Positions 580 to 45,241 of a DNA stretch of 62,929 nt are shown here, in pieces (position 1 is the first letter of the stretch; every line of letters starts with the position of its first letter). The stretch spans positions 1 to 62,929 of the forward strand of contig CALLIG010000060.1 in NCBI GenBank assembly GCA_938009735.1. The letters run 5' to 3'. The notes below the pieces were generated by a model that was not told where the DNA came from, made no database searches, and saw only the letters and a program-made list of their open reading frames with translations. Source of the DNA: an uncultured Flavobacteriaceae bacterium. GTDB lineage: Bacteria; Bacteroidota; Bacteroidia; Flavobacteriales; Flavobacteriaceae. The position numbers and the translations under genes are program-made.

Positions 580-1656
580 TTAGGCTGGCAAAAAGACCAC
601 TCCGCTTGAAGAATCTCGTTTTGCGCCTGTTACTGATTTTAGAACATTGATTTCTTTTTCCATGCGGAGCGCACCCATTAATGCGAAAACGGCAGACTCC
701 TTAAATTCAATGAGTTCTTTTTCAGGTACAACAACTTTTACACTTGAACCCAATTTATCTTCAAGGGTTTTAATAAGAAAGTCATTCAAAGCACCACCAC
801 CTGTTACAAATAGAGAACTTTCTTCTTTTGTGCTGTTTAGTTTAACCTGTTGCGCTACTTTTTCACAAACATGATGAATAGAAGTATACAATAGGTTTTC
901 AATTGAATCATCGGTTATATCTACAATTGGTGCTACTTCATCAACAAACCATTCATAACCAATTGATTTTGGGTGTGGAAGCAAATAGTATTTCAATCCG
1001 TTTAAACGATCTAGCATGTTTTGATTAATGCTACCTGAACTTGCTAATTCACCTCCTTTATCATAGTCTAAACCAATTTTTCTAGTAATATAGTTTAGAA
1101 TCATATTTGCCAGACCTATATCGTAAGCAATACGAGTTCCTTTTTGCTCAAGTGATATATTACTAATTCCACCCAAATTCAAGCAGAAATCATATTCTCC
1201 GAAAAATAAATGATCACCAATTGGCACCAAAGGCGCTCCTTGTCCTTCTAAAGCAACATCATTCGTTCTAAAATCACATATTACTTTACAACCACTTTCG
1301 TTTGCCAAATGTTGGCCAGAACCGATTTGAAAGGTAAGTCCATTTTCAGGTTGATGATGCGTTGTATGACCATGACTTGCAATAAAATCGACATCTAATT
1401 TTTTCTCAGAAACAAACTGCTTCGTTTGTTGCCCTAGCCACGTACCATATGTATTATGAAATTTTAATAGCTCATCTGCTTTTAAGTAAATAGAATCTTT
1501 CAACTCTGATTGCATATCGTCAGAGTAAGAAATGCTTTCGGTTTCTATTATTTCAAAAGACCATTTATCATCATCTTTAGTAATGTGGCAGTAGCAGAGA
1601 TCTAGACCATCTAATGATGTGCCAGACATTAAACCTACTATTTTGAATGTTTTCAT
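580..1656 (-). CDS. anmK: Anhydro-N-acetylmuramic acid kinase
   Basis: This cytoplasmic kinase cleaves the 1,6-anhydro ring of anhydro-MurNAc and phosphorylates it, giving MurNAc-6-phosphate for MurQ. The 358-residue length is close to the E. coli enzyme. The N-terminus carries the phosphate-binding signature GLMSGTSLDGLD (residues 8-19). Further on are DFIASHGHTTHHQP (about 89-102), CDFRTNDVALEGQGAPLVP (about 126-144) and LNLGGISN, all AnmK hallmarks including the catalytic Asp region. The start ATG lies 5 nt after the stop of the NagZ-like GH3 gene, so the two are translationally adjacent. In the same operon are an AmpG-like permease and a GH3 enzyme, and MurQ is nearby, which supports the assignment strongly. 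Confidence 0.96.
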   Translation of the reverse strand: MKTFKIVGLMSGTSLDGLDLCYCHITKDDDKWSFEIIETESISYSDDMQSELKDSIYLKADELLKFHNTYGTWLGQQTKQFVSEKKLDVDFIASHGHTTHHQPENGLTFQIGSGQHLANESGCKVICDFRTNDVALEGQGAPLVPIGDHLFFGEYDFCLNLGGISNISLEQKGTRIAYDIGLANMILNYITRKIGLDYDKGGELASSGSINQNMLDRLNGLKYYLLPHPKSIGYEWFVDEVAPIVDITDDSIENLLYTSIHHVCEKVAQQVKLNSTKEESSLFVTGGGALNDFLIKTLEDKLGSSVKVVVPEKELIEFKESAVFALMGALRMEKEINVLKSVTGAKRDSSSGVVFLPA

Positions 1657-1661
1657 AACTC

Positions 1662-3239
1662 TTAATTAATAGTTACAGGAAGTCTTCCTATTGCTTTAAT
1701 TTCCCCTAAAAAATGCTGTGTTGCTACATCTTGAAATTCTTTGAAATTTTGATAGACTACAACAATAGCTTTTGCATTGTCTATTTTTAAATGATTCAAT
1801 ACGAAGGGATTTCCAAAAAGGTAAAGCACTACATTTTTTGTTTTAATAAGATTATTAATGAAATCAAGTTCTTCTTGCAGTAATCCAAAATAGTCCATCG
1901 GTTTTACTTGCGGTGGTGTCAATAAAATCAAAATATCTTTTTCTTGCTCCACCTCCGATTTCATTTCTTTCAAATTGGCTAGTATCTCGCCCGGTTCAAA
2001 CCCATGAATAGAACGTTTTATAGTTAATGTGCAAAAATTAGTATTTCTAAAAAGCGCTATATTTTCATCACTTCCATGTAATAGAGTTAAGCTATTTTGT
2101 GCTAGTTTAAGATTTAGATTGGTATTTGTTTCAAGATTTTTATTTGGCTTTAAGTTTTGTGTATGTACAGGGATGGCTTTTTCTTTTAGGTTCGAAACAC
2201 GCTCAAAACTTTCTTCAATTTGCTTATCAGAGGCATTTTTTAGAACAGTATCAATACCCTCAGGAATATTTTCTGCAAAACACAATACATCGTTACCAGC
2301 ATCAAAAGCCAACCATTCTAATTCGCCTTTGGTTGGATAATCTTTTGAAACCGCGTGCATGTTTAATGCATCTGAAATTACGACGCCTTCAAAACCCATT
2401 TCATTTCTAAGAACTCCTTTAATAATATCTTTAGATATACTCGAGGAAATCTTTTGTCCGTTGGCAAGAGCCGGAACAGACAAATGACCAACCATTACCG
2501 AATCGACGCCTTCATCTATTAATTTTTGAAAGGGATATAACTCATTATCGATCAATTCTTCTTTTGATTTTTCTATTAAGGGTAGTCCTAAATGAGAATC
2601 TGTTTCTGTATCACCGTGCCCCGGGAAGTGTTTGATGCTCGTAAGAATGCCTTCGCTTTGGGTACCTCTTATAAATGCCAAAGCTTTTTCCGTTACCAGT
2701 TCTTTGTTTTCTCCGAATGATCGATAACCAATAACCGGATTATTAGGATTATTGTTAATATCAACACACGGAGCTAAATTCCAATGAATACCCGCAGCTA
2801 CACAGTCATTGGCAATACTTTTTCCAACATCATAAATCAAAGCCACCTTTTTTTGAATTGTTCCCAGCGTTATTGCATATGGGTACTGCGGTGTATTTTC
2901 GATACGCATAGCCAAGCCCCATTCTGCATCAATAGCAATTAATAAAGGATATTTCGAAATGTTTTGATATCGCTGAATTAAGCTTTTAATTGTTTGAAAA
3001 CTTTGTTCATGCTGTATAACTTCCTTTTTACCTTCGAAATTTGTAGCAGCGCTAGCACGACTATGAAAGAAACAAAGTCCGCCTACATTGTGTTCTATTA
3101 TTAGTTTTTCTAGTTGTTGTATTTCTTCTTCGGAATCATTAATAAATGCAGCAGGCATAAATAGTTGTCCCACTTTTTCTTTTAACGAAAGTGTTTTTGA
3201 CGCCTCTAAATATGTAAAATGATTATTCATTTGTAACAT
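1662..3239 (-). CDS. Glycoside hydrolase family 3, NagZ-like beta-N-acetylhexosaminidase
   Basis: This GH3 enzyme (525 residues) probably removes GlcNAc from GlcNAc-anhMurNAc or related muropeptides. The NagZ-type signature KHFPGHGDTETDSHLGLP lies at about residues 203-220; the DSH motif supplies the catalytic acid/base His (about 216), and the nucleophile is the Asp in VVISDALNM (about 290). The TIM barrel is followed by a C-terminal region of about 200 residues, longer than E. coli NagZ but usual in Bacteroidota. No signal peptide is seen, so a cytoplasmic role fits. ATG at 3239 or an in-frame ATG at 3230 could start it; both overlap the end of the permease gene, indicating translational coupling. 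The downstream neighbour is anmK. Confidence 0.9.
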   Translation of the reverse strand: MLQMNNHFTYLEASKTLSLKEKVGQLFMPAAFINDSEEEIQQLEKLIIEHNVGGLCFFHSRASAATNFEGKKEVIQHEQSFQTIKSLIQRYQNISKYPLLIAIDAEWGLAMRIENTPQYPYAITLGTIQKKVALIYDVGKSIANDCVAAGIHWNLAPCVDINNNPNNPVIGYRSFGENKELVTEKALAFIRGTQSEGILTSIKHFPGHGDTETDSHLGLPLIEKSKEELIDNELYPFQKLIDEGVDSVMVGHLSVPALANGQKISSSISKDIIKGVLRNEMGFEGVVISDALNMHAVSKDYPTKGELEWLAFDAGNDVLCFAENIPEGIDTVLKNASDKQIEESFERVSNLKEKAIPVHTQNLKPNKNLETNTNLNLKLAQNSLTLLHGSDENIALFRNTNFCTLTIKRSIHGFEPGEILANLKEMKSEVEQEKDILILLTPPQVKPMDYFGLLQEELDFINNLIKTKNVVLYLFGNPFVLNHLKIDNAKAIVVVYQNFKEFQDVATQHFLGEIKAIGRLPVTIN

Positions 3240-4497
3240 TTATTTTCTTCCCAAAGTCAGCAGGAAATTCAATATATCTTAGAAGGATGAAAGAAGGTAT
3301 TGCAGCAATTACAACCCATACAAAAAAGTAAGAGTACCCCAATTGTTCTTGAACAAAACCGCTAATAGCGCCGGCAAACATTGCTCCAAGTGCCATAAAA
3401 CCTGTTGCAATGGCATAATGAGAAGTTTTAGAATTTCCTTCAGCTACATAAAGTAGATAAATTAAAAATGCTGTAAACCCAAAACCATAACCTAACTGCT
3501 CAATCACTACTACACCCGTAATGGCAATAATACTTGTGCTTTTTGTAAATGCAAGTAATGCATAAAAAATATTAGGTATATTGAGAATTAACATCATCGG
3601 TAATAGCCACTTTTTTAATCCATCTCTAGAAATTAAAATTCCACCTAAGATTCCTCCAATTACCAACATAATTATTCCAACGGTACCATCTATTATGCCT
3701 ACTAGTTCAGTAGAAAGGTCTAGTCCACCTTCTGCTTGAGGGTCTAGCATAAAAGGTTTCACCATTTTGCCTAATTGTGATTCTCCCAAGCGAAAAGATA
3801 ATATGAAGGCAATAGTAATTCCAATATTAGATTTCTTGAAGAAAGAACTGAATACTTCGATAAAACTATTGGGCTTATCTTTTTTTACTTCTGCAGAAGA
3901 TTCATACTTCGGAGTGATTAAAAAGTTATAGAAAGTAAGTAAGAGCATCAAAAGCGCAGTAATTATAATTGTTACACTCCAAGCTTTTGAGTTATCACCG
4001 TAATACTTCTCCAGGTAACCAGCTACAACAACAATAAGACCGCTACCAGTTATTACTGCTAAACGATAAGCAGTACTGCGGATACCTACAAAAAAGGATT
4101 GTTTTTTCTCAGAAAGGCCAATCATATAATACCCATCAGTAGCGATATCATTGGTTGCGGAGGCTATAGCAGTCATTAAGAAAAAGGCCAAGGTTAATAC
4201 CAAGAATGAATTAGTTTGAACTGTAAAACCAACGCCTAAAAGAGTAGCAACAACTACTAGTTGCATGATTAAGAACCAATTACGTTTGGTGCTTTTTATA
4301 TCAACAAAAGGGCTCCATAATGGTTTTAATACCCAAGGCAACCCAAGAAGACTGGTATATAGTCCTATATCGGCGTTGCTAATTCCCAGACGTTTATACA
4401 TAATTGTAGAAAGGCCAATTACAATGATATAGGGCAAGCCTTGTGTAAAATATAATACAGGCACCCAAGCCCACGCTCTTTTGTCTTTTTGAATCAT
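3223..4497 (-). CDS. MFS transporter, AmpG-like muropeptide permease
   Basis: The 424-residue protein has about 12 hydrophobic segments and an AmpG-like N-terminus with WVPVLYFTQGLPYIIV, then LGLPWVLKPLWSPFVD and the motif ATNDIATDGYYMIGL, which is typical of AmpG and its relatives. The likely role is proton-driven uptake of GlcNAc-anhydromuramyl compounds into the cytoplasm. Its start codon directly follows the stop of the GHL10-type lipoprotein gene, and its 3' end overlaps the GH3 gene by 17 nt, so the three are tightly co-translated. The operon context (GH3, AnmK) makes peptidoglycan fragments the best substrate guess; chitooligosaccharides remain possible. Confidence 0.85.
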   Translation of the reverse strand: MIQKDKRAWAWVPVLYFTQGLPYIIVIGLSTIMYKRLGISNADIGLYTSLLGLPWVLKPLWSPFVDIKSTKRNWFLIMQLVVVATLLGVGFTVQTNSFLVLTLAFFLMTAIASATNDIATDGYYMIGLSEKKQSFFVGIRSTAYRLAVITGSGLIVVVAGYLEKYYGDNSKAWSVTIIITALLMLLLTFYNFLITPKYESSAEVKKDKPNSFIEVFSSFFKKSNIGITIAFILSFRLGESQLGKMVKPFMLDPQAEGGLDLSTELVGIIDGTVGIIMLVIGGILGGILISRDGLKKWLLPMMLILNIPNIFYALLAFTKSTSIIAITGVVVIEQLGYGFGFTAFLIYLLYVAEGNSKTSHYAIATGFMALGAMFAGAISGFVQEQLGYSYFFVWVVIAAIPSFILLRYIEFPADFGKKINVTNE

Positions 4498-6018
4498 TTA
4501 ATCTATTTGATTTAAAAGTACAATTATCGGTTTAGATTCTCTACCATAGAAATCAATAAAAGTAACTGCTATATATTTTCTTCTTCCTATTTTGTCTAAT
4601 GGAATTTGGACTTCCTCTTTATTTTGGATAGGAACCTTCGCTAGTAGCTTTTTAATAGGATAAATTTCTTTTTTGGTTTTCCCAGATGGATATATCATAG
4701 CATATCGTTCTGACTCTAAGTTGTTGAATTTTAAGCTAATATAAATAGTTGATTTGTCTTTCGTTTTTAGCTGAACATCTTTTATAGAATTCTCGGAAGT
4801 GAATTTTGAAGAAGGCGGAAGTGCAGCAGTCTTATAGTATTTTTTTTTCAAGTGTTTTAAAACATCTGCATTATTATTCATCAGACTTTTGGCACTAAAA
4901 AATGCATTGCCTTGAACTATACTTTTTTCTCGAGCATAACTGATTTGCGTCGGAAGCTCTTTCTTTTTATCCCAGGCTGTATCACTATTATTTCTGATTT
5001 TATATGGGCCGTTACCAATATATAAATTGGTGTTTTGACTGTTGTTTGACCACCAATCTACTATTTTTCGGTGTGAAGCCACAGAAAGCTCCATACTCCA
5101 GTATACTTGAGGAATAAGATAGTCGAGCCAGCCTTCCTCCATCCACAGCAAAGGATCCGCATATAAATCTTCATATGTAGTTTGTCCGGCTTTAGTATCT
5201 GAACCTCTTTCATCTGTAGATTTATTTTTCCAAACGCCAAACGGACTCACACCTAATTGTACCCATGGTTTCCTGGTTTTAATAATATCATGACTCTTTT
5301 TTATTAAAGAATCAATGTTACTGCGTCGCCAATCGCCCAAAGATTGATCTGGTTTTGCACAATTATAGTAGGAAATAGAATCTTTAAAAACTTCGTCTTT
5401 TATGGTATAAGGATAAAAATAGTCATCAAAATGGATGGCATCGATATCATAATTAGTTACAATCTCATCAATTATAGCAACCATTCTTTGTTGTACTTCT
5501 GGCAATCCTGGATCGTAATAGTACTTCTTACCATATTTCAACATCCATTCAGGGTGCGTATTGAAATCATGTGTAGCACTTAATCGTTCGGTTTTTAAAT
5601 CAAAAGTAGCGCGATAGGGGTTGAGCCATGCATGAAACTCCATACCTCTTTTATGGGTTTCAGTAATCATCCAATCTAAAATATGTTCTTTAGAAGGGTC
5701 GAATTTTCCTTCCTCACCATTTAAGAATCTTGACCATGGTGCATAATCAGATTTGTAAAAAGCGTCGCCAGCCGTTCGTATTTGAACAATCGCCGCATTG
5801 AAGTTTAGGTTTTTGTAAAAATCTAAGATTTTAAGGTAATCTGCCTTTTGTTTTTCTATTGCATCATTACCATTTTTTGGCCAATCGATATTTACAACAG
5901 TAGCTACCCAAAAACCTCGAAATTCAGTTCTGGGTTGAGGTTTAGGTTTAAAAACCGAACAAGAACTAATCGTAAGGGAGACAATAAAGAAGAATATTAT
6001 GAATTTATTCATACTCAT
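4498..6018 (-). CDS. GHL10/DUF187-type glycoside hydrolase lipoprotein
   Basis: The 506-residue protein starts with a lipoprotein signal (MNKFIIFFFIVSLTISSC, lipobox SSC) and then shows the family opening FRGFWVATVVNIDWP, the hallmark of the GHL10 (formerly DUF187) domain related to GH10/YngK. Other typical pieces are AWLNPYRA, DIDAIHFDDYFYPY and WLDYLIPQVYW. It is expected to be outer-membrane or periplasm-facing and to act on cell-wall or other glycans; the exact bond is unknown. Two starts are possible: ATG at 6018 (MSMNKF) or ATG at 6012 (MNKF). The second gives a cleaner signal peptide, and the first lies only 1 nt from a strong hairpin (6020-6055). It is the first gene of the permease-GH3-anmK run. 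Confidence 0.88.
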   Translation of the reverse strand: MSMNKFIIFFFIVSLTISSCSVFKPKPQPRTEFRGFWVATVVNIDWPKNGNDAIEKQKADYLKILDFYKNLNFNAAIVQIRTAGDAFYKSDYAPWSRFLNGEEGKFDPSKEHILDWMITETHKRGMEFHAWLNPYRATFDLKTERLSATHDFNTHPEWMLKYGKKYYYDPGLPEVQQRMVAIIDEIVTNYDIDAIHFDDYFYPYTIKDEVFKDSISYYNCAKPDQSLGDWRRSNIDSLIKKSHDIIKTRKPWVQLGVSPFGVWKNKSTDERGSDTKAGQTTYEDLYADPLLWMEEGWLDYLIPQVYWSMELSVASHRKIVDWWSNNSQNTNLYIGNGPYKIRNNSDTAWDKKKELPTQISYAREKSIVQGNAFFSAKSLMNNNADVLKHLKKKYYKTAALPPSSKFTSENSIKDVQLKTKDKSTIYISLKFNNLESERYAMIYPSGKTKKEIYPIKKLLAKVPIQNKEEVQIPLDKIGRRKYIAVTFIDFYGRESKPIIVLLNQID

Positions 6019-6019
6019 A

Positions 6020-6055
6020 AAAAAGACCTATTTAATATTAAAAATAGGTCTTTTT
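6020..6055. terminator. Perfect 14-bp hairpin, bidirectional terminator-like
   Basis: The arms AAAAAGACCTATTT (6020-6033) and AAATAGGTCTTTTT (6042-6055) pair perfectly around an 8-nt loop, with A/T tracts on both outsides. It lies between the stop of the NagB-LmbE gene (6072) and the start of the GHL10 gene (6018 or 6012). It can end the nagB transcript and could also attenuate read-through into the downstream operon. Confidence 0.85.
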
Positions 6056-6071
6056 ATTTGTGTTTATAGGC

Positions 6072-8000
6072 TTATTTAAACTTGTGACGAACAAAAGCTT
6101 CCATAGCTGCATAATCTGATAAGCCGAGGGCATTATATCTTTTAGCAGTATCTCTATTTCGCTCTTCAGCACGCATCCAAAATTCTCTAGAATCATCTCC
6201 TTGAAACATCACTCCGTCTTTTTGTGATTGGTGGCAGAAGATAGCATTTCGCTTCTTTAAAACTTGTCCTGGACTCATAGGTACGGCCATTTCTATTTCA
6301 TTGATATCCCATTCATGCCAAGCTCCGCGATATAACCACAACCAACAATCTTTCATGAAAGATTCAGATTGTAATTTTTCCATGGCTTCAAAAACAGCAT
6401 CTAAACAAACTTTATGTGTGCCATGCGGATCGGCCAAATCGCCAGCAGCAAAAACCTGATGTGGTTCTATTTGCTTAATGATATCCATCATAATTATGAT
6501 ATCAGCTTCTGATAAATTATTCTTTTTTATTGTGCCAGTTTCATAAAATGGTAAATCTAAGAAATGCACATTTGAGTCTTCTAAGCCCATATATCTTGTA
6601 GCGGCATAAGATTCTCCTCTTCTAATATTTCCTTTTAACTGTCTCACTTCAGATGAATCAAAATTACTCTCCTTTTTAGCATTAATAGAATCAATAATCA
6701 ACTGTGCTTCATCAGATGGGTGTATTCTTTTTGCTATTTCTGCATATTTTCTTGCATCAGTATCGGATACTGCAATGTTGCCTGAAGTTTGATAAACAAT
6801 ATGAACTTCGTGACCTTGTTCTACCAACCTATCAAAAGTTCCGCCCATTGAAATAACATCATCATCAGGGTGTGGACTAAATATAATTACTCGTTTTTTA
6901 GCTGGCTCTGCCCGTTCAGGTCTGCTAGAGTCTTCAGCATTCGGTTTTCCACCAGGCCAACCTGTAATTGTATGCTGTAAGCGATTGAACATTTTAATAT
7001 TTAGATCATAAGATTCTTGTAGGGTTAGCAAATCTGCCATACCATTATCATTATAGTCCTTATCCGTTAAGCTTAAAATAGTTTTTTCTGTTTTGCCACA
7101 TAGCCAAACCATTGCTTTTGCAGTTAGTTCTTCTGTCCAATCACAAGGCCTTACTAACCACGGTGTTTTATTACGAGTCAGTTCGCTACCAGCGCCAGTA
7201 TCTAAAACAAAGGTGCAGTTGCTATGATTTTGTAAATAGGTGGCCGGTACTTGCGAGGAAATCTGTCCTTCAATAGTTTCTTTTATGATGGTTGCTTTAT
7301 TCTGGCCCCAACCTAGAAGAACTATTCTTTTAGCACTCTGAAGAGTAGAAATTCCCATTGTAATTGCCTTTCTTGGTACATTGTCAATACCTAAAAAAGC
7401 AGGTGCTGCATCTACTCTTGTAATATGATCTAAAGTAATAACTCTGGTGCCAGAATTATAGTGAGATCCTGGTTCGTTAAAGCCAACATGTCCAGTTCTA
7501 CCAATACCCAAGAGTTGAAAATCAAGTCCGCCAAATCCTTTTATTTTTTTCTCATAGGATAAACAATAAGCGACCGCAGACTCGTATTCTGTTGTACCAT
7601 CAGGAATATGTATGTTTTCTGAAAGAATATCAACATGATTAAAAAGATGTTCATGCATAAAGTAAAAATAACTTTGCATGTTATCTCTTTCCATGGGCAA
7701 ATATTCATCTAGATTAAAAGTAACCACATTAGCAAAACTCAGTCCATCTTCTTGATGCATTCGAACTAGTTCTTCATAAACTCGAATAGGAGATGAACCA
7801 GTTGCCAAACCTAAAACACAATGTTTGTTTTTGGCTTGTTTCTTTTTAATTAAACCAGCTATTTCTTCAGCAACTCGAATAGATGCATCGTTCGAATTAG
7901 AAAAAATTACATTATGAATTTTCTCAAAACGAGTTTCTTCAAATTTACCTATAGGTTTATAGGTGATATCTAGGTTTGATTTTTTATCAATGGTTTCCAT
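6072..8000 (-). CDS. nagB: Glucosamine-6-phosphate deaminase (NagB-like) fused to PIG-L/LmbE deacetylase domain
   Basis: The 642-residue protein is much longer than single-domain NagB (about 266). Residues about 25-300 are the NagB fold: LGLATGSSPIRVYEELV (63-79), FNLDEYLPM with the catalytic Asp (98), and GIGRTGHVGFNEPGS (165-179) with His171 and Glu176. The usual Asp before GH (E. coli D141) is Thr169 here. Residues about 368-640 are a PIG-L/LmbE zinc deacetylase domain with SPHPDDD (375-381) and DPHGTH (524-529), so the metal site looks intact. NagB makes fructose-6-phosphate from GlcN-6-P; the second domain suggests removal of an N-acetyl group, but its substrate is inferred. Such long forms are known in Bacteroidota. 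It is divergent from the DeoR-murQ operon and preceded by a perfect palindrome. Confidence 0.9.
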   Translation of the reverse strand: METIDKKSNLDITYKPIGKFEETRFEKIHNVIFSNSNDASIRVAEEIAGLIKKKQAKNKHCVLGLATGSSPIRVYEELVRMHQEDGLSFANVVTFNLDEYLPMERDNMQSYFYFMHEHLFNHVDILSENIHIPDGTTEYESAVAYCLSYEKKIKGFGGLDFQLLGIGRTGHVGFNEPGSHYNSGTRVITLDHITRVDAAPAFLGIDNVPRKAITMGISTLQSAKRIVLLGWGQNKATIIKETIEGQISSQVPATYLQNHSNCTFVLDTGAGSELTRNKTPWLVRPCDWTEELTAKAMVWLCGKTEKTILSLTDKDYNDNGMADLLTLQESYDLNIKMFNRLQHTITGWPGGKPNAEDSSRPERAEPAKKRVIIFSPHPDDDVISMGGTFDRLVEQGHEVHIVYQTSGNIAVSDTDARKYAEIAKRIHPSDEAQLIIDSINAKKESNFDSSEVRQLKGNIRRGESYAATRYMGLEDSNVHFLDLPFYETGTIKKNNLSEADIIIMMDIIKQIEPHQVFAAGDLADPHGTHKVCLDAVFEAMEKLQSESFMKDCWLWLYRGAWHEWDINEIEMAVPMSPGQVLKKRNAIFCHQSQKDGVMFQGDDSREFWMRAEERNRDTAKRYNALGLSDYAAMEAFVRHKFK

Positions 8001-8020
8001 ATTCCGATTCTATGTAAAAA

Positions 8021-8036
8021 GTGTGTTCGAACACAC
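8021..8036. promoter_or_regulatory. Perfect 16-bp palindrome, candidate operator of nagB
   Basis: GTGTGTTCGAACACAC is a perfect palindrome without a loop. It lies 20 nt upstream of the nagB ATG and just downstream of a -7 element on the same strand (8053-8046), the classical position for a repressor site. A 13/16 match lies upstream of pfkA at 43111-43126. The binding protein is not known; the adjacent DeoR regulator is one candidate. Confidence 0.7.
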
Positions 8037-8045
8037 AGTTAAATA

Positions 8046-8053
8046 CAAATGTA
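8046..8053 (-). promoter_or_regulatory. -7 promoter element of nagB (TACATTTG)
   Basis: Read on the minus strand this is TACATTTG, matching the Bacteroidota -7 consensus TAnnTTTG. Transcription would start a few bases downstream, near 8040, giving a leader of about 40 nt that contains the palindrome. No -33 TTG is found at the usual 17-23 nt distance, so the match is only partial. Confidence 0.5.
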
Positions 8054-8069
8054 AAAAATAATTCGACAA

Positions 8070-8160
8070 TTTGCTGTTTCATCCAATTATTTTTGCTGTT
8101 TATTGCATTTTTTATGGATTTAGTCTAATTTTTTATCTAAAATGCGGCTAAAAGCAGCAT
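8070..8160. promoter_or_regulatory. Repeated TGCTG boxes in the nagB/deoR divergent region
   Basis: TTTGCTGTTT occurs twice in direct orientation (8070-8079 and 8092-8101), 22 bp apart, i.e. about two helical turns. A third, imperfect palindrome (8142-8160: ATGCGGCT, AAA, AGCAGCAT) contains the same core on the other strand and abuts the deoR -7 element. DeoR-family proteins often bind several short repeats near their own promoter, so these are candidate autoregulatory sites. Confidence 0.4.
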
Positions 8161-8174
8161 ATTATTTATTTTAT

Positions 8175-8182
8175 TACCTTTG
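8175..8182 (+). promoter_or_regulatory. -7 promoter element of the deoR-murQ operon (TACCTTTG)
   Basis: TACCTTTG matches TAnnTTTG exactly and lies 18 nt before the ATG at 8201, which predicts a short leader of about 14 nt. No clear -33 element is seen at the expected spacing. Confidence 0.6.
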
Positions 8183-8200
8183 TAACTTCAATAAAAATTG

Positions 8201-8950
8201 ATGTTAAAAGAAGAACGGCAGCAGACTATATTAAATGAAGTAGATCTTCACAATAGAATACTATTGACCGATATAGCAGAAACACTTGATGTTTCTATTG
8301 ATACGGTGCGAAGAGATGTAAAAGAACTTGATGCAGACCAAAAGCTTCGGAAAGTTCATGGTGGTGCAATTTCTCTTGGTTTTACAACAAGTAGCACAAG
8401 AAATACTAATATTTACGCCCTTCAGGAGAAAACCAAAATTGCGCAAAAGGCATTGTCGCTATTAACAGATGGATCGGTTATTTTTATTGACGGCGGAACT
8501 ACTTGCCTAGAATTGGCAAGATTGATTCCTTTAGATCTTGAATTTACTTGCTTTACTTTGAGTTTGCCCGTTGCGATGGAACTCTCTTCAAAACCTAATG
8601 TTACGGTTATTTTTATCGGAGGTGAGATTTCAAAAGATGCTCAAATATCTATTGGAGCAAATACAATTCATAATTTATCAGAGATCAAAGTTGACTACAG
8701 TTTTATAGGAACAGGTTATGTAGATTCTAAATACGGACTTACTGAATTTGATTGGGATATTGTACAACTTAAGAAAGCTGTAATAAAGGCAGCAAAGAAA
8801 ACGGTACTTTTATGCATTTCAGAAAAATTGAATTCGCAACATCGTTATAAAACCTGTGATATAAACTCCATTAATACAATGATTACAGAGTTGGAGCCGG
8901 AAGACAAACTATTAAACCTTTTTAGAAACCACGATATTCGACTACTATAA
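8201..8950 (+). CDS. DeoR-family transcriptional regulator of amino-sugar metabolism
   Basis: The protein has an N-terminal DeoR helix-turn-helix (ERQQTILNEV, then ILLTDIAETLDVSIDTVRRDVKELD, about residues 5-45). After it come KLRKVHGGA and the sugar-phosphate-sensing DeoRC domain with FIDGGTTCLELARLIP (about 95-110). The reading frame is open from a TTG at 8198, but the ATG at 8201 (MLKEERQQ, 249 residues) is the natural start. Its stop overlaps the murQ start by one base (TAATG), so the two are coupled. It is divergent from the NagB-LmbE gene, so it most likely senses an amino-sugar phosphate and controls both directions; the ligand is inferred. Confidence 0.9.
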   Translation: MLKEERQQTILNEVDLHNRILLTDIAETLDVSIDTVRRDVKELDADQKLRKVHGGAISLGFTTSSTRNTNIYALQEKTKIAQKALSLLTDGSVIFIDGGTTCLELARLIPLDLEFTCFTLSLPVAMELSSKPNVTVIFIGGEISKDAQISIGANTIHNLSEIKVDYSFIGTGYVDSKYGLTEFDWDIVQLKKAVIKAAKKTVLLCISEKLNSQHRYKTCDINSINTMITELEPEDKLLNLFRNHDIRLL

Positions 8951-9759
8951 TGGAATATATAAAAATTACAGAGACACCATCAAATCACGATAACTTAGAA
9001 CAATTAGATACCACATCTATTTTATCAAAAATGAATGAAGAAGATCAAAAAGTAGCGGATGCTGTCGCTTTGGTCATTCCTCAAATTACAAAATTGGTAG
9101 ATGCTTTAGCGGAACGTTTTGTTGAGGGAGGGCGTCTTTTCTACATTGGTGCTGGTACGAGTGGTAGACTAGGTATTTTAGATGCATCAGAAATTCCTCC
9201 AACTTTTGGATTACCACATGAAAGAGTGGTAGGCTTAATTGCTGGTGGTGACACAGCAATACGAAAATCAGTTGAGAATGCTGAAGATGATGGTCAACAA
9301 GCTTGGAAGGACTTACAAAAACATAATATATCTTCTAAAGATGTAGTCGTAGGTATTGCAGCATCTGGAACAACACCGTATGTAATTGGTGGTATAAACG
9401 AAGCGAAAGCAAATGGCTTATTAACAGCTGGTATTACGAACAACCCCGGTTCTCCATTGCCAAATGCTGCTGATATTCCAATAGCAGTAAATGTAGGTCC
9501 AGAATTTATTACAGGTAGCACACGAATGAAAAGTGGTACTTCTCAGAAATTAGTATTGAATATGATCTCTACAGCCTTGATGATTAAAATAGGACGAGTA
9601 AAGGGCAACAAGATGATCAATATGCAATTAAGTAACGTAAAGCTTGTTGACCGCGGAGTTCGTTATGTTGTAGAAGGTTTAGGAATTACATATTCTGAAG
9701 CTTCTGAAATGCTTAAAAAGCATGGTTCGGTAAAAGCTGCATTAGATGCTGGAATGTAA
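8950..9759 (+). CDS. murQ: N-acetylmuramic acid 6-phosphate etherase
   Basis: MurQ cleaves the lactyl ether of MurNAc-6-phosphate, giving GlcNAc-6-phosphate and D-lactate in the cytoplasm. The SIS-domain sugar-phosphate site appears as YIGAGTSGRLGILDASEIPPTFG (broken here by description: residues 65-87), with catalytic Glu81 equivalent to E. coli E83. Later motifs are AGGDTAIRKSVENAEDD, AASGTTPYV and TGSTRMKSGTSQKLVLNM. At 269 residues it is shorter than E. coli MurQ (298), lacking part of the C-terminal helical region, as is usual in this phylum. The start codon overlaps the DeoR stop by one base. It completes the AnmK-MurQ-NagB route encoded on the two strands here. Confidence 0.96.
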   Translation: MEYIKITETPSNHDNLEQLDTTSILSKMNEEDQKVADAVALVIPQITKLVDALAERFVEGGRLFYIGAGTSGRLGILDASEIPPTFGLPHERVVGLIAGGDTAIRKSVENAEDDGQQAWKDLQKHNISSKDVVVGIAASGTTPYVIGGINEAKANGLLTAGITNNPGSPLPNAADIPIAVNVGPEFITGSTRMKSGTSQKLVLNMISTALMIKIGRVKGNKMINMQLSNVKLVDRGVRYVVEGLGITYSEASEMLKKHGSVKAALDAGM

Positions 9760-11418: not shown

Positions 11419-14400
11419 ATGCTCCCACAAAAATCGAGGTACGTCTTGTATGTCCTATTGATATTGGCTCTGTCGGTAATCGGCACTTCAGCCATTGCGA
11501 AAACATCGGTATACACTTTCATTACCGAAGTAGTTTCGACGCTAGAGGATGATGTCACCACTTCACCAAATACTCAAATTAACAAAACAACGAAAAATAA
11601 GGCCAAGGCTTCTGCCATGCCCATGTTTATGACTATCATTCAAGGAGCGGATGAAGAAGTAACATGTGCAGATGATGGAAGTACCGTAGCAAGGTTTAGT
11701 CTTTGCGGTGATTTTGATGATCGAACAATTTCTTTGGCAGGCGCCCCATTTGGAAGTGTAGAATGGGAACAAGTTACAGGTGGATGTACACCTGATGTAA
11801 ATACACCATGCCCAAGCGGAAGTTGTACTTTTTCTTCTGTGGGAGGAGGACAAACGTTTTCTATAGACGCAAGTACTATACCAGCAGGAACTGGAGCAGA
11901 ATTTCGAGTAAGAGCTGATGGTACTGGACCTTGGTATTATTTTGAAGTTACAAAAAGTACGATTACCCAAACTTATGTGAAAACAGATTTCGTTTGTGGC
12001 GTTGATGGTCGTATTCAAATTACAGGTCTTTCAAGCGCCTATGAATTTAGTATCGATAGTGGAAGTGGTTTTGGCCCATGGCAAGGACCTATGTTTGATA
12101 ATTTAACACCAGGTACCTACAACGTAAAAGCAAGACTTCAAAATACTCCGGGAGCTTGCGAATATCCTTATGAGCCTATTGTTATTGAACAGCAAGACAT
12201 GGTTATTGAAGCAACTTTTGTTGATGTAGCTTGTTCAGGAGAAACGGGAAGCATCACAGTTAATGTTAATAATACCGTACCAGGTCCTTATAAATATACA
12301 TTGCTTGATAATACAGGTACAGCTCAAGAATTTACTGCATTTTTACCAGCAGACAATTATACGTTCGCTGCAGTAGGTGTTGGAACTTATACTGTTCAAG
12401 TGGAGACTCAACAATGTACTGGTGATCCTTTAAACGGAATTGATCCGCCTCGTCAAAATTTAGATACGAGTGGAAACCCAATTACTATCGGAAATGGTTT
12501 AGCAGCATTAGATGCTTCAACTGAAGTGAATAGTAGTTTTGGTTGTTCAACTATTACTGATGTAGATATTACGTTAAATGTAACTGGTGGTTCAGCTCCA
12601 TATACCTTTACGGTTAATGGAGGCCCTATACAACCATCCTTTACAGGTTCAACAACGTATAACGTTACTACAGCAGGAACTTATGATTTTATAGTTACAG
12701 ACAGTAATGGCTGTACTATTCCCGCATCATCAAATGTGGAAAATCTTTCTCCTCCTGATGTGACGGCAGCCGGAGTTGATGGTACATGTTCAAATGGTGG
12801 TGCAAGAATCAATTTTAATGTGGTTAATGCAAATGGATACAACTTATCGTATCGCGTGAATGCAATTGATCCATGGGATACTAATCCTTCAATTTCTGTC
12901 CCGGCAGGTACCTATAATAACATTGAAGTTCGGTATCAGCAAGGTGGCTTTGAATGTACAATGACCTTACCAGCTATTACAGTAACAAACGTAGGCGTAA
13001 TTTCAGGCTCTGCAACTAAGGTAGCGGATAGAACTTGTGATGGATCTGGTGGCACAATTGGCGGACAAATAGATTTTGGAGCAGCTAGTGGTGGATCTGG
13101 TAGTGGTTATGTTTTTAGTATAGACGGATTAAATTTTAGTGCAACTACATCTTTTACTGGTTTGGTTCCGGGTACGTATACCCCTATGATTGAAGATGGC
13201 GGTGGGTGTCGGCTAGCACTTACAGCAATAGATATTTTAGATGTTGATCCGCCTACAGATATTGATTTTATTGCAACCAATAGTAATTGTGCCGCAAGTA
13301 CTGTTGACTTACAATTGGTGCCAACAAGTAATGTAGCGATTACTAACTATTCTATTATAAGTCCATCAACCATTAATAATGGTGGTAGTGACACTTTTGT
13401 TAGTCTTGACGCAACACAATCTTATATATTTCAAATTACAGATGCGAATAATTGTACCTATACAGAAGGGTATTCTCCAGCTATAGTTAGTACTATTCGT
13501 GCTAGAGTTAAATCAGGTGGTGATACGCAAGTATGTTTTGGTGCTGCAGATGGTTCTGGTGCTTTTTTAATAGATGGATTCGCTAATAATTATACCTACA
13601 ACATAAATGGAGCTCCTGAAAGCGCTCCACAAAATGCTGGCGAAGTTTCTATTACTGGTTTGGCCCCTGCAACTTATACCATTACAATTACCGATGTTGA
13701 TACCGGATGTACTGATACAGCTAACTTTACAGTACAAGAACCAGCATCTGCTTTAGACTTAACAGCTACTGTAACAGCAATGACTTGTGCAAATGGTAAT
13801 TTAGGAAGAGTAGTTGCGCAAACTACAGGCGGTTGGGGAAATAATAGATTTACCTTAGTGTACCCTGGTGGTGGAACAACGGTTGGACCTAAAGCGGGAC
13901 CCGTTTTTGGTAATCTTTCGTTAGCAGGAACTTATACGCTATCTGTTACTGATGCTGAAGGATGTTCAGATAGCATGACATTTGACTTAACTCCAATAGA
14001 CGCTCCAACTATTACACTAGATAATGTGGCTTCTGACTTTTGTTATGTTCCAGGTACGGGAGCAACTATGGTGGTAACTTCAACTGCTGGTTCTGCTGCA
14101 ATTGGCACACACCAATTTAGAATTAACGGAGGTCCTTTGCAGGCTGGTGGTACATTTACAAACCTTAGCCCAGGTGGTTACTCTATTGAAGTAGTAGACG
14201 GTAATAATTGTTCCGCCTCAGTTAACTTAACAGTACGCCCTCAATTAAGAGTTAATACTAGTATCACAGGTGAGATACCATGTGGTGCTGCTGATGGAGA
14301 AATAACGGTTCAAGTTACTGGAGGTTATTTATCAAGTACTACTCCTAAATCATACGAGGTAAGTACAGATAATGGTGTAACATTTAGTGCTTCTACTCCT

Positions 14401-17400
14401 TTTACAACCAATACATTTGCTTTTAATACAAGCGTTCCTGGCGACTATATTTTCAGAGTATCTGATAATGAAGGTTGTATTGCAGAATCAAATCCTATTA
14501 CATTAAACCCACCACAATCTATTGATCCGCCAACAGTAGTGGTGACTCCAGCTAGTTGTGGTCAAACAAATAATGGAATTGTAACAATTACCCCTGATGC
14601 AACAAGTGGTGTTCCTGCATATGAAATTAACTTTAATAATACAGGTTGGGGTACTCAAGCTACTTTTTCGAATTTAATAGCTGGTAATACATATCCTTAT
14701 TCAGTTCGTGATTCAAGAGGTTGTGAAACTTTACCTGCCTCAGTTACTATTCCTTTAGATGCTACACCACCGCCAGATGCGACTGTTGTTTCAAATCTAG
14801 CAATATGTAGTTCTGGTACATTAGAGGGCTCGATCGATGTAACAAATGTAACAGGCGGAACCGCTAACTTCACCTATATATTACAAGATGAATTTGGAGT
14901 AGAGATTACAAGAACAGGACCAACTGCCAGTACAACAACGACTTTTGCAAACCTAGCACCAGGCAATTATTCTATAGTGACTATTGACGCTTTGGGTTGT
15001 AGAGATATAGATGCAGTTACGGTTATTCAAACAAACCTAACAGTAGTTCCAGATCCTGTAACACCAGTTTGTGATATTACTGGATTTAGTAATACAGTAG
15101 AGATATTTGGTGGAGTAGGACCATTCTTAATTCGATTAGAGAATGACCCAGCTGCCCCGGTAACTCCAAATATCCCTCCAAGAAGACATACATTTATAGG
15201 TTTACAATTTGGTGTGACGTATACTGTAGAAGTTACTGATGTAGGTACTGGTTGTGTGTATTTAGAAGAAATTCCTCCTGTTGAAGGCCCATCTACCTTA
15301 GATGTTACTGCGGCTACTACGCCAGGATATTGTGATGTAAATCGTTTCGGACAGATTAGTTATGATATTTCAGGTTTCTTGCCGAATAGTGATTTGATCG
15401 TAGAAGTACTAAATACAGATGACGGAACACGTATAACGATTGAATCTCCGACAAATGTATCACCAGTTCATTCTGGTACTTACGAAGCATTACCAGGTAA
15501 TTATCAAATCATTGTAACAGATCTTACTGATAATTGTAGTGATGCTACCGCGGTAACTATATTACAGAACTTACCAGCAATAGATATTTTAAGTGCAAAC
15601 CCTGCCAATTGTACTTCGAATGGTTCAATTACTGTTCAAGGAAATGGTGGTGGTGGAGGTCCTTATAATTTTGCTTTTATGACGGTTGGAGCTATTCCAA
15701 CACCAGGAGATTTTACACCAAGCACTACGTTTTTTGGCCCAGCTGGAAATTATGATGTTTATGTTCAAGATGCTACCGGTTGTACCTCTTTCGCAATTGC
15801 TGAAATCATTCCATTAGACCCAGCATTGCCTGTGCCAATTTTTGCAGTTGATAATCAATGCGCAGTTGCATCGCCATCTTTTGATATTATTGTGCGTGTT
15901 CCTTCTACTGTTGATACTCCTAGATTTACATTGGGTGGTGACACAAGATTCCCAACTATTGTTGGTGCTTTCTGGGAGGCTACTTATGTTGTAAATACTC
16001 CAGGTAATTATATAGTAAATGTTATTGATGCAAATGGTTGTACAAGTCAAGGAACTGCAGATGTTTTTGAATTTATTTCTGCATCAGGAGATTTTAGTAC
16101 TGAATCTACATGTAATGATGCTGACGGTGCGATAACTATAATACCTAATGGTGGTAGTGGTAATTTTGATTATGAACTTACAGGTACTAATTACTTAGGA
16201 ACAGGTGTTGGACCAATAATACAATCTGACAACCCTGTTTTTACTGGTGTAACACCAGGAACATACCAAGTGTTAGTTACTGATAGAGATGTAACTGACG
16301 GTGTTTCAAATTGTACTTTTACGGTGTCCAATATTACTTTAGATGCTGCTATTCCGCCAGTTATAATGCCTACTACACCAGAAAACATATCTTGTAATGG
16401 TGATAGTGATGGTAGTATTGATATTGTACTTCAGGCTGGTACTGATTTCGATGGTCCAATTGATTATCGTTTGTTGGATTTTGTAACTAGAGCCGTAATT
16501 GCAAATAATGCTTCTGGATCATTTCCAGATTTGACACCAGGTAGTTATGAAGTTGAGGTTGTTTCAACGAGAAACTGTACTGATTTATCAGGAGAATTAG
16601 TAATTTCAGAGCCGCCTATATTTACAATTACAGCAGCAGCAACACCTTTTACCTGCGAGTCTGGTTCTAATAGATTTAGTTCTTCAATTGTAACTGCAAC
16701 GATTACTAGTGCTGGTACACCAACAAATTATAGATATAGTATAACTGGTTTTGAGAATTATCAAACGAGTAATACTTTCGAAATTGTTGATAATGGTAGC
16801 ACACAAAACATAACTGTTTATGCTATTGATGATAACGGATGTCAAACTACCGCAAGTGTACCTATAAGTCCTCCTTTAGATGTTATTCCTTCTATTGTAC
16901 AAACAGATCTATTAAATTGTAGAGATCCAGAAAGAGTTCGTATCGAAGTAATAGGTACTACTGATTTTACAGTTACTACAGTTTCAGCTATTCCTGTTGC
17001 ACCTGTTACTAATACAGCAGGTAATAATTATGTAGATGTATTTTTGCCAGCATCTGGCGACTATCTGTTTGAGGTACAAGATAATCTGCCTAGCGGCTGT
17101 GCTTATCCAATGCCAATACATACTGTAATAGATCCTATTCAACCAACAATTGTTATTGCAGAAGCAAACCCAATACAATGTTTTGGAGGAAGTGATGGTG
17201 AATTGTCAATCGAAGTAACTGATTATACCGGGCTATATTCTTATACAGTTTATAGCGGAAGCGATCCAACTAAAACAACACCTATTGCGACAGGTAATTT
17301 AGATACGGCAAACAATCCAGAACTAATTACCGGTCTTGCTGGTGGTAATTTCTTTGTGGAAGTTACTTCTACTGGTATGCCATTCTGTTCAAGTGATAGT

Positions 17401-19881
17401 AATATTGCCACAATCAGAACTCCTAATGGGGTACTTGACGTAACTGCAGTTCCTGTAGGTAATGTGAGTTGCAATGATAATACTGGAGTTATCGAAGCTA
17501 CCGGTGTCGGTGGTTGGGATACAACCCCATATGAATATCGATTGCTACAAGATAGTGGATCTGGTTATGTTGAGGTTGTAGCATACTCTAATACTCATGA
17601 ATTCCAAAATTTATCAAGCGGTGATTATCGCGTCGAGATTCGTGATGTTGAAGGTTGTACAGATACATTCGATATTAATTTACCAATTGTACCGCAGATT
17701 GATGCCGGTATAAGAGAGCCTTTAGCGTTACAATGTCCAAACGGTAACAATGCAATATTAGAAGCTTTTGACCCAACATCTGGTGATGCAATTACTGCAA
17801 CAGCAGGCGCTTCGGGTGGTTTCCTTGGCGCGGGTTATACCTATAGACTTCTATATTTAAATAGTAACGACAATACAGATATCGCTTCATCAAGCGGATT
17901 GCAAAATACACCAACCTTTATTGGTACTAGTGGTGGTTTTATTAGCGGCGGTTGGTATGCTATTGAGGTGACTTCAAGCTATGAATGTTCCTTTGTAACC
18001 GTACCTTATTTAGTGAGTCCGCCACCACCAATTGAACCAAGATTAGTTCAAACAAGAGTACCTGGTTGTGGAGGTTTAGGAGAAATGCGTTTATTTGTTG
18101 AAAATCCAGATGCTGCTTTTACTTATGAATTTGTTTCTTTTGAAAATGGTGTTCAAGTAGGTGTATATGCCGATTTACCGGCTAGTGCTTCTCTTTTAAT
18201 TCCAGGTACTGCCGGTGTTTTATATCAATATGATGTCCGCAAGAAAAATGCTTCTAATACTTGTTTGCCTGTTCGTTCGAATGGTGTAACAATGACCGAT
18301 GCGTCTGGAATTACTTTATTGCCAAATTTACCTGATGATATTTCTTGTGCATCTGAGCTTGACGGTCGAATTGAATCATTTATCAATGGTGGTGTAGGTG
18401 GTGAGATGTTTACATTATACAATGGTGACCCAGTTGACGCTTTCAGTCCTGCAGCTTCAGCGACAGTATTTAGAGGACCTCAAGATAACGGTACTTTCGA
18501 AGGATTGCCTCAAGGCGCAGATTATTATATTGCAGTTACTAGTGGTGCCACATGTAGCGACATTGCCGGCCCATTTGAAATAGTTCGCCCCGATCCAATA
18601 CTTTATACACCAACATCAACATCTGTTAGTTGTAACGGGGAAGCCGATGGTTCGGTAACATTTGAAGTTACAAGTGGAGGTATAGGTCTAATACAATTTG
18701 CAATAGCTCCTAATTTTAATGAATTCTTTAGTGAGCCAACAACTCCTGGTATTTACACATTTGAAGATTTGGCGGCAGGTAGTTACGAGGTGTTAATTCA
18801 AGATGAAAACGGTTGTTTTGAAAGAGCAATGATAGATGTTATAGAGCCTGAAGTTTTAAATGCAACATTAGTTGATTCGACACCAGAAACTTGTATTGGT
18901 TTTGAAGATGGAACAGCCACAATATCTATAACAGGTGGTACACCATTTGTTGATGCTTCAACTTTTGCAACATATTATGAAACTAAGATAATCGGCCCAA
19001 ATTCAGATGGAAGCGAATTATTTGTACGTAATGATAATTTATATTTTGAAAATTTAATTGGTGGTGAAACTTATATTATTCTAGTTCAAGATGCTAATTT
19101 ATGTCCAGGCGAGGTAGTCGTACCTATTGAAATAGGTGTTGACCTTACCGCTGAAGCAGAAGTGCTATATGGTTGTGAGGGTATTTTTCCTTCTAGTACA
19201 TCAACGGTTAGGATGACAGATGACAGCTTAATCTCAGATCTGTTATTTGCACTAGACCCAATTGATCCAACGGATGCGATAAGTGCTAATGCTGGTACTG
19301 ATTTTACTTGGGGTGATTTACCAGCGGGCGATCATACGGTATATATTTATCATCAGAACGGTTGTACCAATTCTGTTATGTTTACAACATTACAATATGA
19401 GCCTTTGATTTTAACGGCTACCAAAACAGGACCTAATGAAGTAACTGCTTTTGCTGAAGGTGGATTTGGTAACTATGAATATTTTTTCCAAGGTGAATCT
19501 ACAGGTATTGAAACTGTTTATACAACTAATGAAAGTACCGTTGTTAATATCGAAGTAAGAGATGAAGGTGGTTGTGTTGCTATGGTGACCATACCTTTTG
19601 AATTTACAGGGATGTTAGATATTCCTAATTTCTTTACACCTGATGGAGATAATAACAATGATGTATGGGCGCCTAAAAATCGAGAGTTTTTCCCTAATAT
19701 TGATGTGAAGATCTATGATAGATACGGTAGAGTCGTAGAAGAATTAGATCAAGTCCAAAGTTGGGATGGAAATTACAACGATACAGGAAATCCTTTGCCA
19801 TCTGGTGACTATTGGTATGTGATAAACGCAAATGACAAAAGTAAAATTAGATATGTGGGTCATTTTACCTTGTATCGTTAA
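11419..19881 (+). CDS. Giant secreted adhesin with SprB-like repeats and type B T9SS C-terminal domain
   Basis: This is a 2820-residue surface protein. A signal peptide (about residues 1-28, hydrophobic YVLYVLLILALSVIG) is followed by roughly 25-30 diverged modules of about 80-100 residues. Each module tends to have a Cys, a stretch like GSITVxVxGG, an internal YxFSID or YxYxI strand, FxNLxPGTYxVxVxD and a closing GC. This is the SprB/gliding-adhesin repeat style. The last 85 residues (IPNFFTPDGDNNNDVWAP ... IYDRYGRVVEELDQVQSWDG ... GDYWYVI) form the gliding-motility-associated type B C-terminal domain that directs export through the type IX system. It is monocistronic: a promoterless-looking 124-nt gap lies upstream and a strong terminator follows. 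No PorP/SprF partner gene is next to it, which is unusual for type B substrates. Its ligand is unknown. Confidence 0.92.
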   Translation: MLPQKSRYVLYVLLILALSVIGTSAIAKTSVYTFITEVVSTLEDDVTTSPNTQINKTTKNKAKASAMPMFMTIIQGADEEVTCADDGSTVARFSLCGDFDDRTISLAGAPFGSVEWEQVTGGCTPDVNTPCPSGSCTFSSVGGGQTFSIDASTIPAGTGAEFRVRADGTGPWYYFEVTKSTITQTYVKTDFVCGVDGRIQITGLSSAYEFSIDSGSGFGPWQGPMFDNLTPGTYNVKARLQNTPGACEYPYEPIVIEQQDMVIEATFVDVACSGETGSITVNVNNTVPGPYKYTLLDNTGTAQEFTAFLPADNYTFAAVGVGTYTVQVETQQCTGDPLNGIDPPRQNLDTSGNPITIGNGLAALDASTEVNSSFGCSTITDVDITLNVTGGSAPYTFTVNGGPIQPSFTGSTTYNVTTAGTYDFIVTDSNGCTIPASSNVENLSPPDVTAAGVDGTCSNGGARINFNVVNANGYNLSYRVNAIDPWDTNPSISVPAGTYNNIEVRYQQGGFECTMTLPAITVTNVGVISGSATKVADRTCDGSGGTIGGQIDFGAASGGSGSGYVFSIDGLNFSATTSFTGLVPGTYTPMIEDGGGCRLALTAIDILDVDPPTDIDFIATNSNCAASTVDLQLVPTSNVAITNYSIISPSTINNGGSDTFVSLDATQSYIFQITDANNCTYTEGYSPAIVSTIRARVKSGGDTQVCFGAADGSGAFLIDGFANNYTYNINGAPESAPQNAGEVSITGLAPATYTITITDVDTGCTDTANFTVQEPASALDLTATVTAMTCANGNLGRVVAQTTGGWGNNRFTLVYPGGGTTVGPKAGPVFGNLSLAGTYTLSVTDAEGCSDSMTFDLTPIDAPTITLDNVASDFCYVPGTGATMVVTSTAGSAAIGTHQFRINGGPLQAGGTFTNLSPGGYSIEVVDGNNCSASVNLTVRPQLRVNTSITGEIPCGAADGEITVQVTGGYLSSTTPKSYEVSTDNGVTFSASTPFTTNTFAFNTSVPGDYIFRVSDNEGCIAESNPITLNPPQSIDPPTVVVTPASCGQTNNGIVTITPDATSGVPAYEINFNNTGWGTQATFSNLIAGNTYPYSVRDSRGCETLPASVTIPLDATPPPDATVVSNLAICSSGTLEGSIDVTNVTGGTANFTYILQDEFGVEITRTGPTASTTTTFANLAPGNYSIVTIDALGCRDIDAVTVIQTNLTVVPDPVTPVCDITGFSNTVEIFGGVGPFLIRLENDPAAPVTPNIPPRRHTFIGLQFGVTYTVEVTDVGTGCVYLEEIPPVEGPSTLDVTAATTPGYCDVNRFGQISYDISGFLPNSDLIVEVLNTDDGTRITIESPTNVSPVHSGTYEALPGNYQIIVTDLTDNCSDATAVTILQNLPAIDILSANPANCTSNGSITVQGNGGGGGPYNFAFMTVGAIPTPGDFTPSTTFFGPAGNYDVYVQDATGCTSFAIAEIIPLDPALPVPIFAVDNQCAVASPSFDIIVRVPSTVDTPRFTLGGDTRFPTIVGAFWEATYVVNTPGNYIVNVIDANGCTSQGTADVFEFISASGDFSTESTCNDADGAITIIPNGGSGNFDYELTGTNYLGTGVGPIIQSDNPVFTGVTPGTYQVLVTDRDVTDGVSNCTFTVSNITLDAAIPPVIMPTTPENISCNGDSDGSIDIVLQAGTDFDGPIDYRLLDFVTRAVIANNASGSFPDLTPGSYEVEVVSTRNCTDLSGELVISEPPIFTITAAATPFTCESGSNRFSSSIVTATITSAGTPTNYRYSITGFENYQTSNTFEIVDNGSTQNITVYAIDDNGCQTTASVPISPPLDVIPSIVQTDLLNCRDPERVRIEVIGTTDFTVTTVSAIPVAPVTNTAGNNYVDVFLPASGDYLFEVQDNLPSGCAYPMPIHTVIDPIQPTIVIAEANPIQCFGGSDGELSIEVTDYTGLYSYTVYSGSDPTKTTPIATGNLDTANNPELITGLAGGNFFVEVTSTGMPFCSSDSNIATIRTPNGVLDVTAVPVGNVSCNDNTGVIEATGVGGWDTTPYEYRLLQDSGSGYVEVVAYSNTHEFQNLSSGDYRVEIRDVEGCTDTFDINLPIVPQIDAGIREPLALQCPNGNNAILEAFDPTSGDAITATAGASGGFLGAGYTYRLLYLNSNDNTDIASSSGLQNTPTFIGTSGGFISGGWYAIEVTSSYECSFVTVPYLVSPPPPIEPRLVQTRVPGCGGLGEMRLFVENPDAAFTYEFVSFENGVQVGVYADLPASASLLIPGTAGVLYQYDVRKKNASNTCLPVRSNGVTMTDASGITLLPNLPDDISCASELDGRIESFINGGVGGEMFTLYNGDPVDAFSPAASATVFRGPQDNGTFEGLPQGADYYIAVTSGATCSDIAGPFEIVRPDPILYTPTSTSVSCNGEADGSVTFEVTSGGIGLIQFAIAPNFNEFFSEPTTPGIYTFEDLAAGSYEVLIQDENGCFERAMIDVIEPEVLNATLVDSTPETCIGFEDGTATISITGGTPFVDASTFATYYETKIIGPNSDGSELFVRNDNLYFENLIGGETYIILVQDANLCPGEVVVPIEIGVDLTAEAEVLYGCEGIFPSSTSTVRMTDDSLISDLLFALDPIDPTDAISANAGTDFTWGDLPAGDHTVYIYHQNGCTNSVMFTTLQYEPLILTATKTGPNEVTAFAEGGFGNYEYFFQGESTGIETVYTTNESTVVNIEVRDEGGCVAMVTIPFEFTGMLDIPNFFTPDGDNNNDVWAPKNREFFPNIDVKIYDRYGRVVEELDQVQSWDGNYNDTGNPLPSGDYWYVINANDKSKIRYVGHFTLYR

Positions 19882-43110: not shown

Positions 43111-43126
43111 GTGTTCTCGAGCACAC
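43111..43126. promoter_or_regulatory. Imperfect palindrome matching the nagB operator
   Basis: GTGTTCTCGAGCACAC is palindromic except for one pair and matches the perfect palindrome upstream of nagB (8021-8036) at 13 of 16 positions, including the TCGA centre and CACAC end. It lies about 60-75 bp upstream of the pfkA -7 element, a position more typical of an activator or distal operator. Confidence 0.6.
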
Positions 43127-43139
43127 GAAAACGTTTTCG
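43126..43139. promoter_or_regulatory. Perfect LacI/GalR-type palindrome upstream of pfkA
   Basis: CGAAAACGTTTTCG is a perfect 14-bp palindrome with the central CG and A/T half-sites typical of LacI/GalR-family operators. It overlaps the previous palindrome by one base. It lies 82 nt upstream of the pfkA ATG. No LacI-family gene is present in the window. Confidence 0.6.

Positions 43140-44239: not shown

Positions 44240-45241
<1,002 letters not shown>

Follow-up and report, generated by a model that had tools for sequence, protein, structure and literature searches.

Two palindromic sites, one upstream of nagB and one upstream of pfkA, were found in the 62,929-nucleotide stretch analysed here (the window), and both are very probably operators of a single LacI/GalR-family regulator that is encoded outside the window, on contig C320 of the same genome; the assignment was made by sequence comparison. 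A dimer of the C320 protein would read a 16-bp palindrome of about RTGTKNTCGANMACAY with a central CG, and the protein would govern the use of amino sugars. Its putative sites in this genome would stand before nagB-GHL10-ampG-GH3-anmK, before pfkA-gapA-MurNAc/GlcNAc-kinase, after the lacI gene itself and in the gap between an aroE-like and a DUF349 gene. The window is contig C60 of genome G000 (the own genome; 3.99 Mb, 390 contigs, 84.8% complete), which belongs to the same genus as genome G007.

Palindromic sites and gene order in the window

The nagB site was found to contain the perfect 16-bp palindrome GTGTGTTCGAACACAC at positions 8021-8036 (no strand assigned). The pfkA site, GTGTTCTCGAGCACAC at positions 43111-43126 (no strand assigned), agreed with it in 13 of the 16 nucleotides, and 7 of its 8 pairs were palindromic; a sequence-only reading of the same DNA had described both sites in these terms, and both were recovered. 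Each is an even palindrome of 16 bp with TCGA at the centre, and an even palindrome with a central CG is the general rule for LacI-family operators in the available text of PMC4052901. When up to three mismatches were allowed, the two sites were the sole matches in the window against a mean expectation of 0.07, and two or more such matches were found in 1 of 100 window shuffles, which bears out the earlier claim that the pair is unlikely to have arisen by chance. The pattern GTGTNNTCGANNACAC was present in 8 of 59 genomes, and the whole own genome contained three copies of it as against none for the reversed-pattern control. At a tolerance of one mismatch, the pattern and the reversed control each gave five matches in the own genome, an absence of excess by which loose matches alone are no proof; one-mismatch scans were rejected as standalone evidence.

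The nagB gene encodes a NagB-PIG-L fusion (6072-8000, minus strand) and was followed on the same strand by a GHL10 glycoside-hydrolase-like gene (4498-6018), an AmpG-like muropeptide transporter gene (3223-4497; score under the curated cut-off), a GH3 gene that is NagZ-like by context (1662-3239) and anmK (580-1656). The opposite side of the site was occupied by a deoR-family gene divergent from nagB (8198-8950, plus strand) and by murQ (8950-9759, plus strand). Genes of murein recycling (anmK, GH3, AmpG-like, nagB fusion and murQ) were found clustered at positions 580-9759, around the divergent deoR. The second operon contained pfkA (43221-44213), gapA (44240-45241) and a MurNAc/GlcNAc-kinase-like gene with full-length structure matches (45316-46167), all on the plus strand. 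The NagB-PIG-L fusion, DeoR, pfkA and gapA were thereby identified as the sequence-only reading had named them. Elsewhere in the window, positions 11419-19881 were found to encode a protein of 2820 aa that has SprB repeats together with a type IX secretion domain and is probably a surface adhesin.

The -7 promoter consensus of Bacteroidota is TAnnTTTG. A TAnnTTTG-like candidate -7 element of nagB, TACATTTG, was found at positions 8046-8053 (minus strand), and the palindrome starts 9 bp past it, in keeping with its earlier placement behind the nagB -7 element; the same gap was found in G000, G008 and G011. A LacI dimer on an operator situated just past the promoter-like element would stop transcription at initiation or early in elongation.

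Conservation of the nagB site was assessed at 78 other nagB loci, which are the best 80 of 529 matches minus L103 and L107 (matches starting too close to the contig end). The palindrome, with at most one mismatch, was found in 2 of these 78 upstream regions (L028 of G008 and L029 of G011), and wide conservation of the nagB site was rejected on this count. In a tree of DeoR and PfkA for 12 genus members, G000 was paired with G008 (support 0.963) and G011 was placed elsewhere, a topology that fits one origin of the nagB site as well as several. The expectation that the sites would be conserved was thus borne out in part: both recur in relatives, but the nagB site was kept only in two close ones.

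The LacI-family protein and co-occurrence with the motif

The candidate regulator gene was found at positions 6070-7116 of contig C320 and encodes a protein with domains PF00356 and PF13407; the own genome contained five LacI-family genes. A motif copy, ATGTGTTCGAGCACAT, stands after the C320 lacI gene, and the contig ends 157 bases further on. In relatives, the site after lacI stands before a susC-like gene. Orthologues of the C320 protein were present in 11 of 14 genus genomes, and the helix stretch SKGTVDRV was identical in all 20 orthologues compared. Of 20 genomes, 13 had a strict site, that is, a match to RTGTKNTCGANMACAY, no further than 1 kb from lacI; the other seven orthologues (G004, G006, G007, G009, G010, G019 and G026) had no strict site within this distance, and in G019, G026 and G006 LacI was present and no strict site was found in the genome. 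In G016, which contains a LacI-family protein 47% identical to that of C320, three motif copies spaced by 22-23 bp were found between the LacI-family gene and an amino-sugar operon. This operon contained a nucleotidyltransferase-like gene (by eye; no Pfam match), an APH-fold kinase gene, a NagP-like transporter gene (below cut-off) and nagB, and the arrangement in G015 resembled it.

A matrix was trained on 18 lacI-adjacent sites from 13 other genomes, a set which includes one site identical to each of the window sites; the nagB site was found to be identical to a lacI-adjacent site of G129, a genome of another genus. In the matrix scan of the window the nagB site ranked first (26.05) and the pfkA site second (22.31), followed by a third score of 12.12. 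None of 300 first-order Markov sequences reached 22.31, the top score among them being 18.28.

The presence of LacI was defined by a match at E 1e-60 or better. Among 100 genomes of the family, RTGTKNTCGANMACAY was found in 16 and LacI in 11, and the motif was present in 9 of the 11 genomes with LacI as against 7 of the 89 without it (Fisher 2.9e-7). As the pattern had been picked after some genomes were viewed, 76 later genomes were tallied separately, and in these the motif was present in 2 of 2 genomes with LacI and in 4 of 74 without (p 0.005). When 12 further genus members were added, the counts were 17 of 20 and 7 of 92, respectively. The genomes are related, and the p-values overstate their independence. 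Over all 100 genomes the reversed control gave 41 hits and the pattern 35; the excess of the pattern was limited to the 11 genomes with LacI (28 against 5 for the control), and the 89 genomes without LacI contained 7 against 36.

The position of the sites with respect to genes was also found to differ. A site was counted as well placed if it was intergenic or no more than 60 nt from the start of an ORF. In the 100-genome sample this applied to 27 of 28 sites from LacI-containing genomes (three being within such a start), as against 1 of 7 from the genomes without LacI. One of five sites in the own genome was intragenic. Among the 22 sites of eight additional genus genomes, 8 were intragenic, with 6 of these at a single place in a coaE-like gene, and the pooled count was 41 of 50 well-placed sites with LacI as against 1 of 7 without (p 0.0008). 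The coaE-like intragenic sites were found in six genus genomes, at L153:7960, L154:4354, L155:8048, L164:3783, L253:4907 and L255:5426; the coaE-like frame reads about NV[IL]xN at the motif, so that coding constraint may explain these sites.

These results also bear on the reading in which the nagB palindrome works as a hairpin of the leader RNA, or in which the two sites resemble each other by mere chance. With the promoter correctly called, the nagB site would lie in the transcript, and few nagB genes have it. However, the motif is also found upstream of pfkA and of susC-like genes, its occurrence depends on that of the LacI gene, and no simulated sequence reached the score of the pfkA site; a hairpin or a coincidence is hardly credible. 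Chance was rejected on the co-occurrence with LacI and on the matrix ranking.

The DeoR protein encoded next to nagB was weighed as the common regulator, binding both palindromes. It is the nearest regulator and its gene is divergent from nagB, and DeoR-family proteins are frequent regulators of sugar-phosphate genes. By a short sequence signature, a deoR gene divergent from nagB was recognised in 66 of the 78 nagB loci (from the best 80 of 529), yet the palindrome was found in only two of the 78. G012 had no DeoR match and contained two motif copies (one in coaE), and in G001, G003 and G005 DeoR was present and the motif absent. What tracked the presence of deoR was a separate array: at nagB loci with deoR, AAACAGCA/TGCTGTTT was found at 1.55 copies against 0.03 expected, and at 0.25 in the 12 loci without deoR. 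This array is likely to be the DeoR operator by its sequence distribution, and two TGCTGTTT copies in the window (8072-8101, no strand assigned) are probable DeoR operators. The adjacent DeoR, which had been put forward as a candidate in the sequence-only reading, is accordingly a very improbable owner of the two palindromes and was ruled out as common regulator by co-occurrence across genomes. The wider claim of that reading, one dimeric regulator for the amino-sugar and pfkA operons, is supported by the shared operator motif, its dependence on the presence of LacI and its position near lacI.

The pfkA operon and other putative targets

The pfkA palindrome has its end 94 bp upstream of the ATG. 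Of 13 pfkA loci from the genus, 7 had it with no more than one mismatch, and of the 17 other pfkA loci none did. It is abutted by GAAAACGTTTTC (43127-43138, no strand assigned), a putative second LacI-type element, and in 7 of 7 genus pfkA loci with the palindrome the two elements were found in fixed register, their centres being 14 bp apart. The GAAAACG nucleotides were found at such a position in 18 of 30 pfkA loci examined, more widely than the pfkA palindrome; among the 18 are those of G018, G020, G021, G022 and G025, all without C320-type LacI. As GAAAACG occurs in genomes that lack this protein, GAAAACGTTTTC probably serves another LacI-type regulator, and at a spacing of 14 bp the two proteins would be expected to interfere or cooperate. 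The LacI protein may activate at pfkA, or compete there with the other regulator.

It is also conceivable, if unlikely, that two LacI-family proteins divide the palindromes between them, the C320 protein binding those of the RTGTGTTCGAACACAY type (nagB, susC-like) and another those of the GTGTTATCGAGCACAC type (pfkA). The own genome has five LacI-family genes, the pfkA sites of most relatives contain one GTGTTAT half, and in G004, G006, G007, G009 and G010 the pfkA site is present without a strict site near lacI. Against this, the array between lacI and the nagB operon in G016 (another genus) was found to include an exact copy of the window's pfkA site, near-identical copies were found in G015, and C320-type LacI was present in all seven genus genomes with the pfkA site. 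A single LacI regulator for both sites is preferred, and such a protein may be a repressor at nagB and an activator or competitor at other sites; the positions of the sites are consistent with the earlier proposal that it represses at nagB and acts on pfkA from upstream. An amino sugar, or the phosphate of one, would be the effector.

The third gene of the pfkA operon, called simply a kinase in the sequence-only reading, was confirmed as such and can now be specified as encoding a MurK/NagK-like protein. The protein, of 283 aa, gave near-full-length matches to the Tannerella forsythia MurNAc kinases with structures 8ow9 (MurK, E 1.7e-44) and 8ow7 (K1058, E 3.8e-39), which are described as such in the available text of PMC10465942. 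With a relative of MurNAc/GlcNAc kinases in the pfkA operon, both operons of the window would handle amino sugars. The operon therefore fits the regulon that had been proposed from the consumption of F6P, but the fit comes from the kinase gene also and not from the F6P use of PfkA alone. The pfkA match of G012 (L121) contained one in-frame TAG, either an assembly error or a broken gene.

A susC-like gene (by eye) with a site was found after lacI in G002, G008, G011, G012, G013, G024, G031 and G068, and in G011, G024 and G031 the site was 88-97 bp from the start codon. In G015, G016 and G027 sites precede amino-sugar operons (NagP-like transporter, kinase and nagB). A GDSL-GH20 pair with a site was found in G010 and G013; GH20 genes as general targets were rejected as weak, the strict site being present in 2 of 24 GH20 loci. 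A GSDH/cytochrome gene with a site was found in G002 and G031, its neighbours in G002 being amidohydrolase, RidA and SelA-like genes. Contig C172 of the own genome contained GTGTGTTCGATAACAC (L162:1019-1034) between the aroE-like and DUF349 genes, which have no obvious amino-sugar link; a site in this gap was found in G000, G004, G007 and G011, and with one mismatch in G009. One-mismatch sites were found at pckA in G006, G007 and G009 and at a pyk operon in G009; as the one-mismatch count in the own genome equals the control, these are only leads.

On a broader and tentative reading, which is less likely than not, the LacI regulator would be a small Cra-like hub that couples the salvage of amino sugars and murein sugars to the committed step of glycolysis, with two sugar signals read at once on the 28-bp stretch at pfkA that is shared in fixed register with the second LacI-type site. 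The breadth found so far is pfkA-gapA with strict or near-strict sites in 7 of 13 genus loci, and pckA and pyk with one-mismatch sites only. For the Maribacter-type marine Flavobacteriaceae, a regulator, an operator and a first list of targets have thus been assigned to amino-sugar use, and the link of chitin and cell-wall sugar salvage to glycolysis becomes testable. With pfkA there is also an example of an operator that keeps a constant register to a more widespread neighbour.

Comparison with known regulators

The operators of E. coli GalR and GalS are palindromes of the 16-bp type with GTG...CAC ends and a central CG. The palindrome type is shared with the sites found here, and the protein and the targets are different; the C320 protein scored far under the cut-off against the NCBIfam models of GalR and GalS. 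In Bacteroides, another group of Bacteroidota, NanR was assigned to the use of sialic acid and GlcNAc according to the available text of PMC3878776, a similar assignment to sugars made for a protein of a different family (ROK).

For Flavobacteriaceae, no LacI regulator of GlcNAc genes was found described in the literature covered, which was largely open-access rather than subscription papers, and no such regulator was found in the available texts of PMC3878776, PMC12125979, PMC4324048, PMC4052901, PMC10465942 and PMC3223726. The kind of switch is familiar, and this particular one seems not to have been described previously.

FruR/Cra and PckR are global LacI-family regulators of glycolytic or gluconeogenic genes, the targets of PckR including pckA (available text of PMC4052901). 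In contrast to these, the strict sites found here, in another lineage, reach pfkA-gapA only, and pckA and pyk were found at one mismatch. NagR of Shewanella is a validated protein of the LacI family that controls GlcNAc transport (nagP), a kinase, a nagB-type deaminase and chitin genes, and its binding is relieved by GlcNAc, the negative effector; the pfkA-gapA operon is not mentioned among its targets in the available text (PMC3223726). The regulator predicted here is assigned to the LacI family from its sequence and is not named NagR, being likened to NagR by description only.
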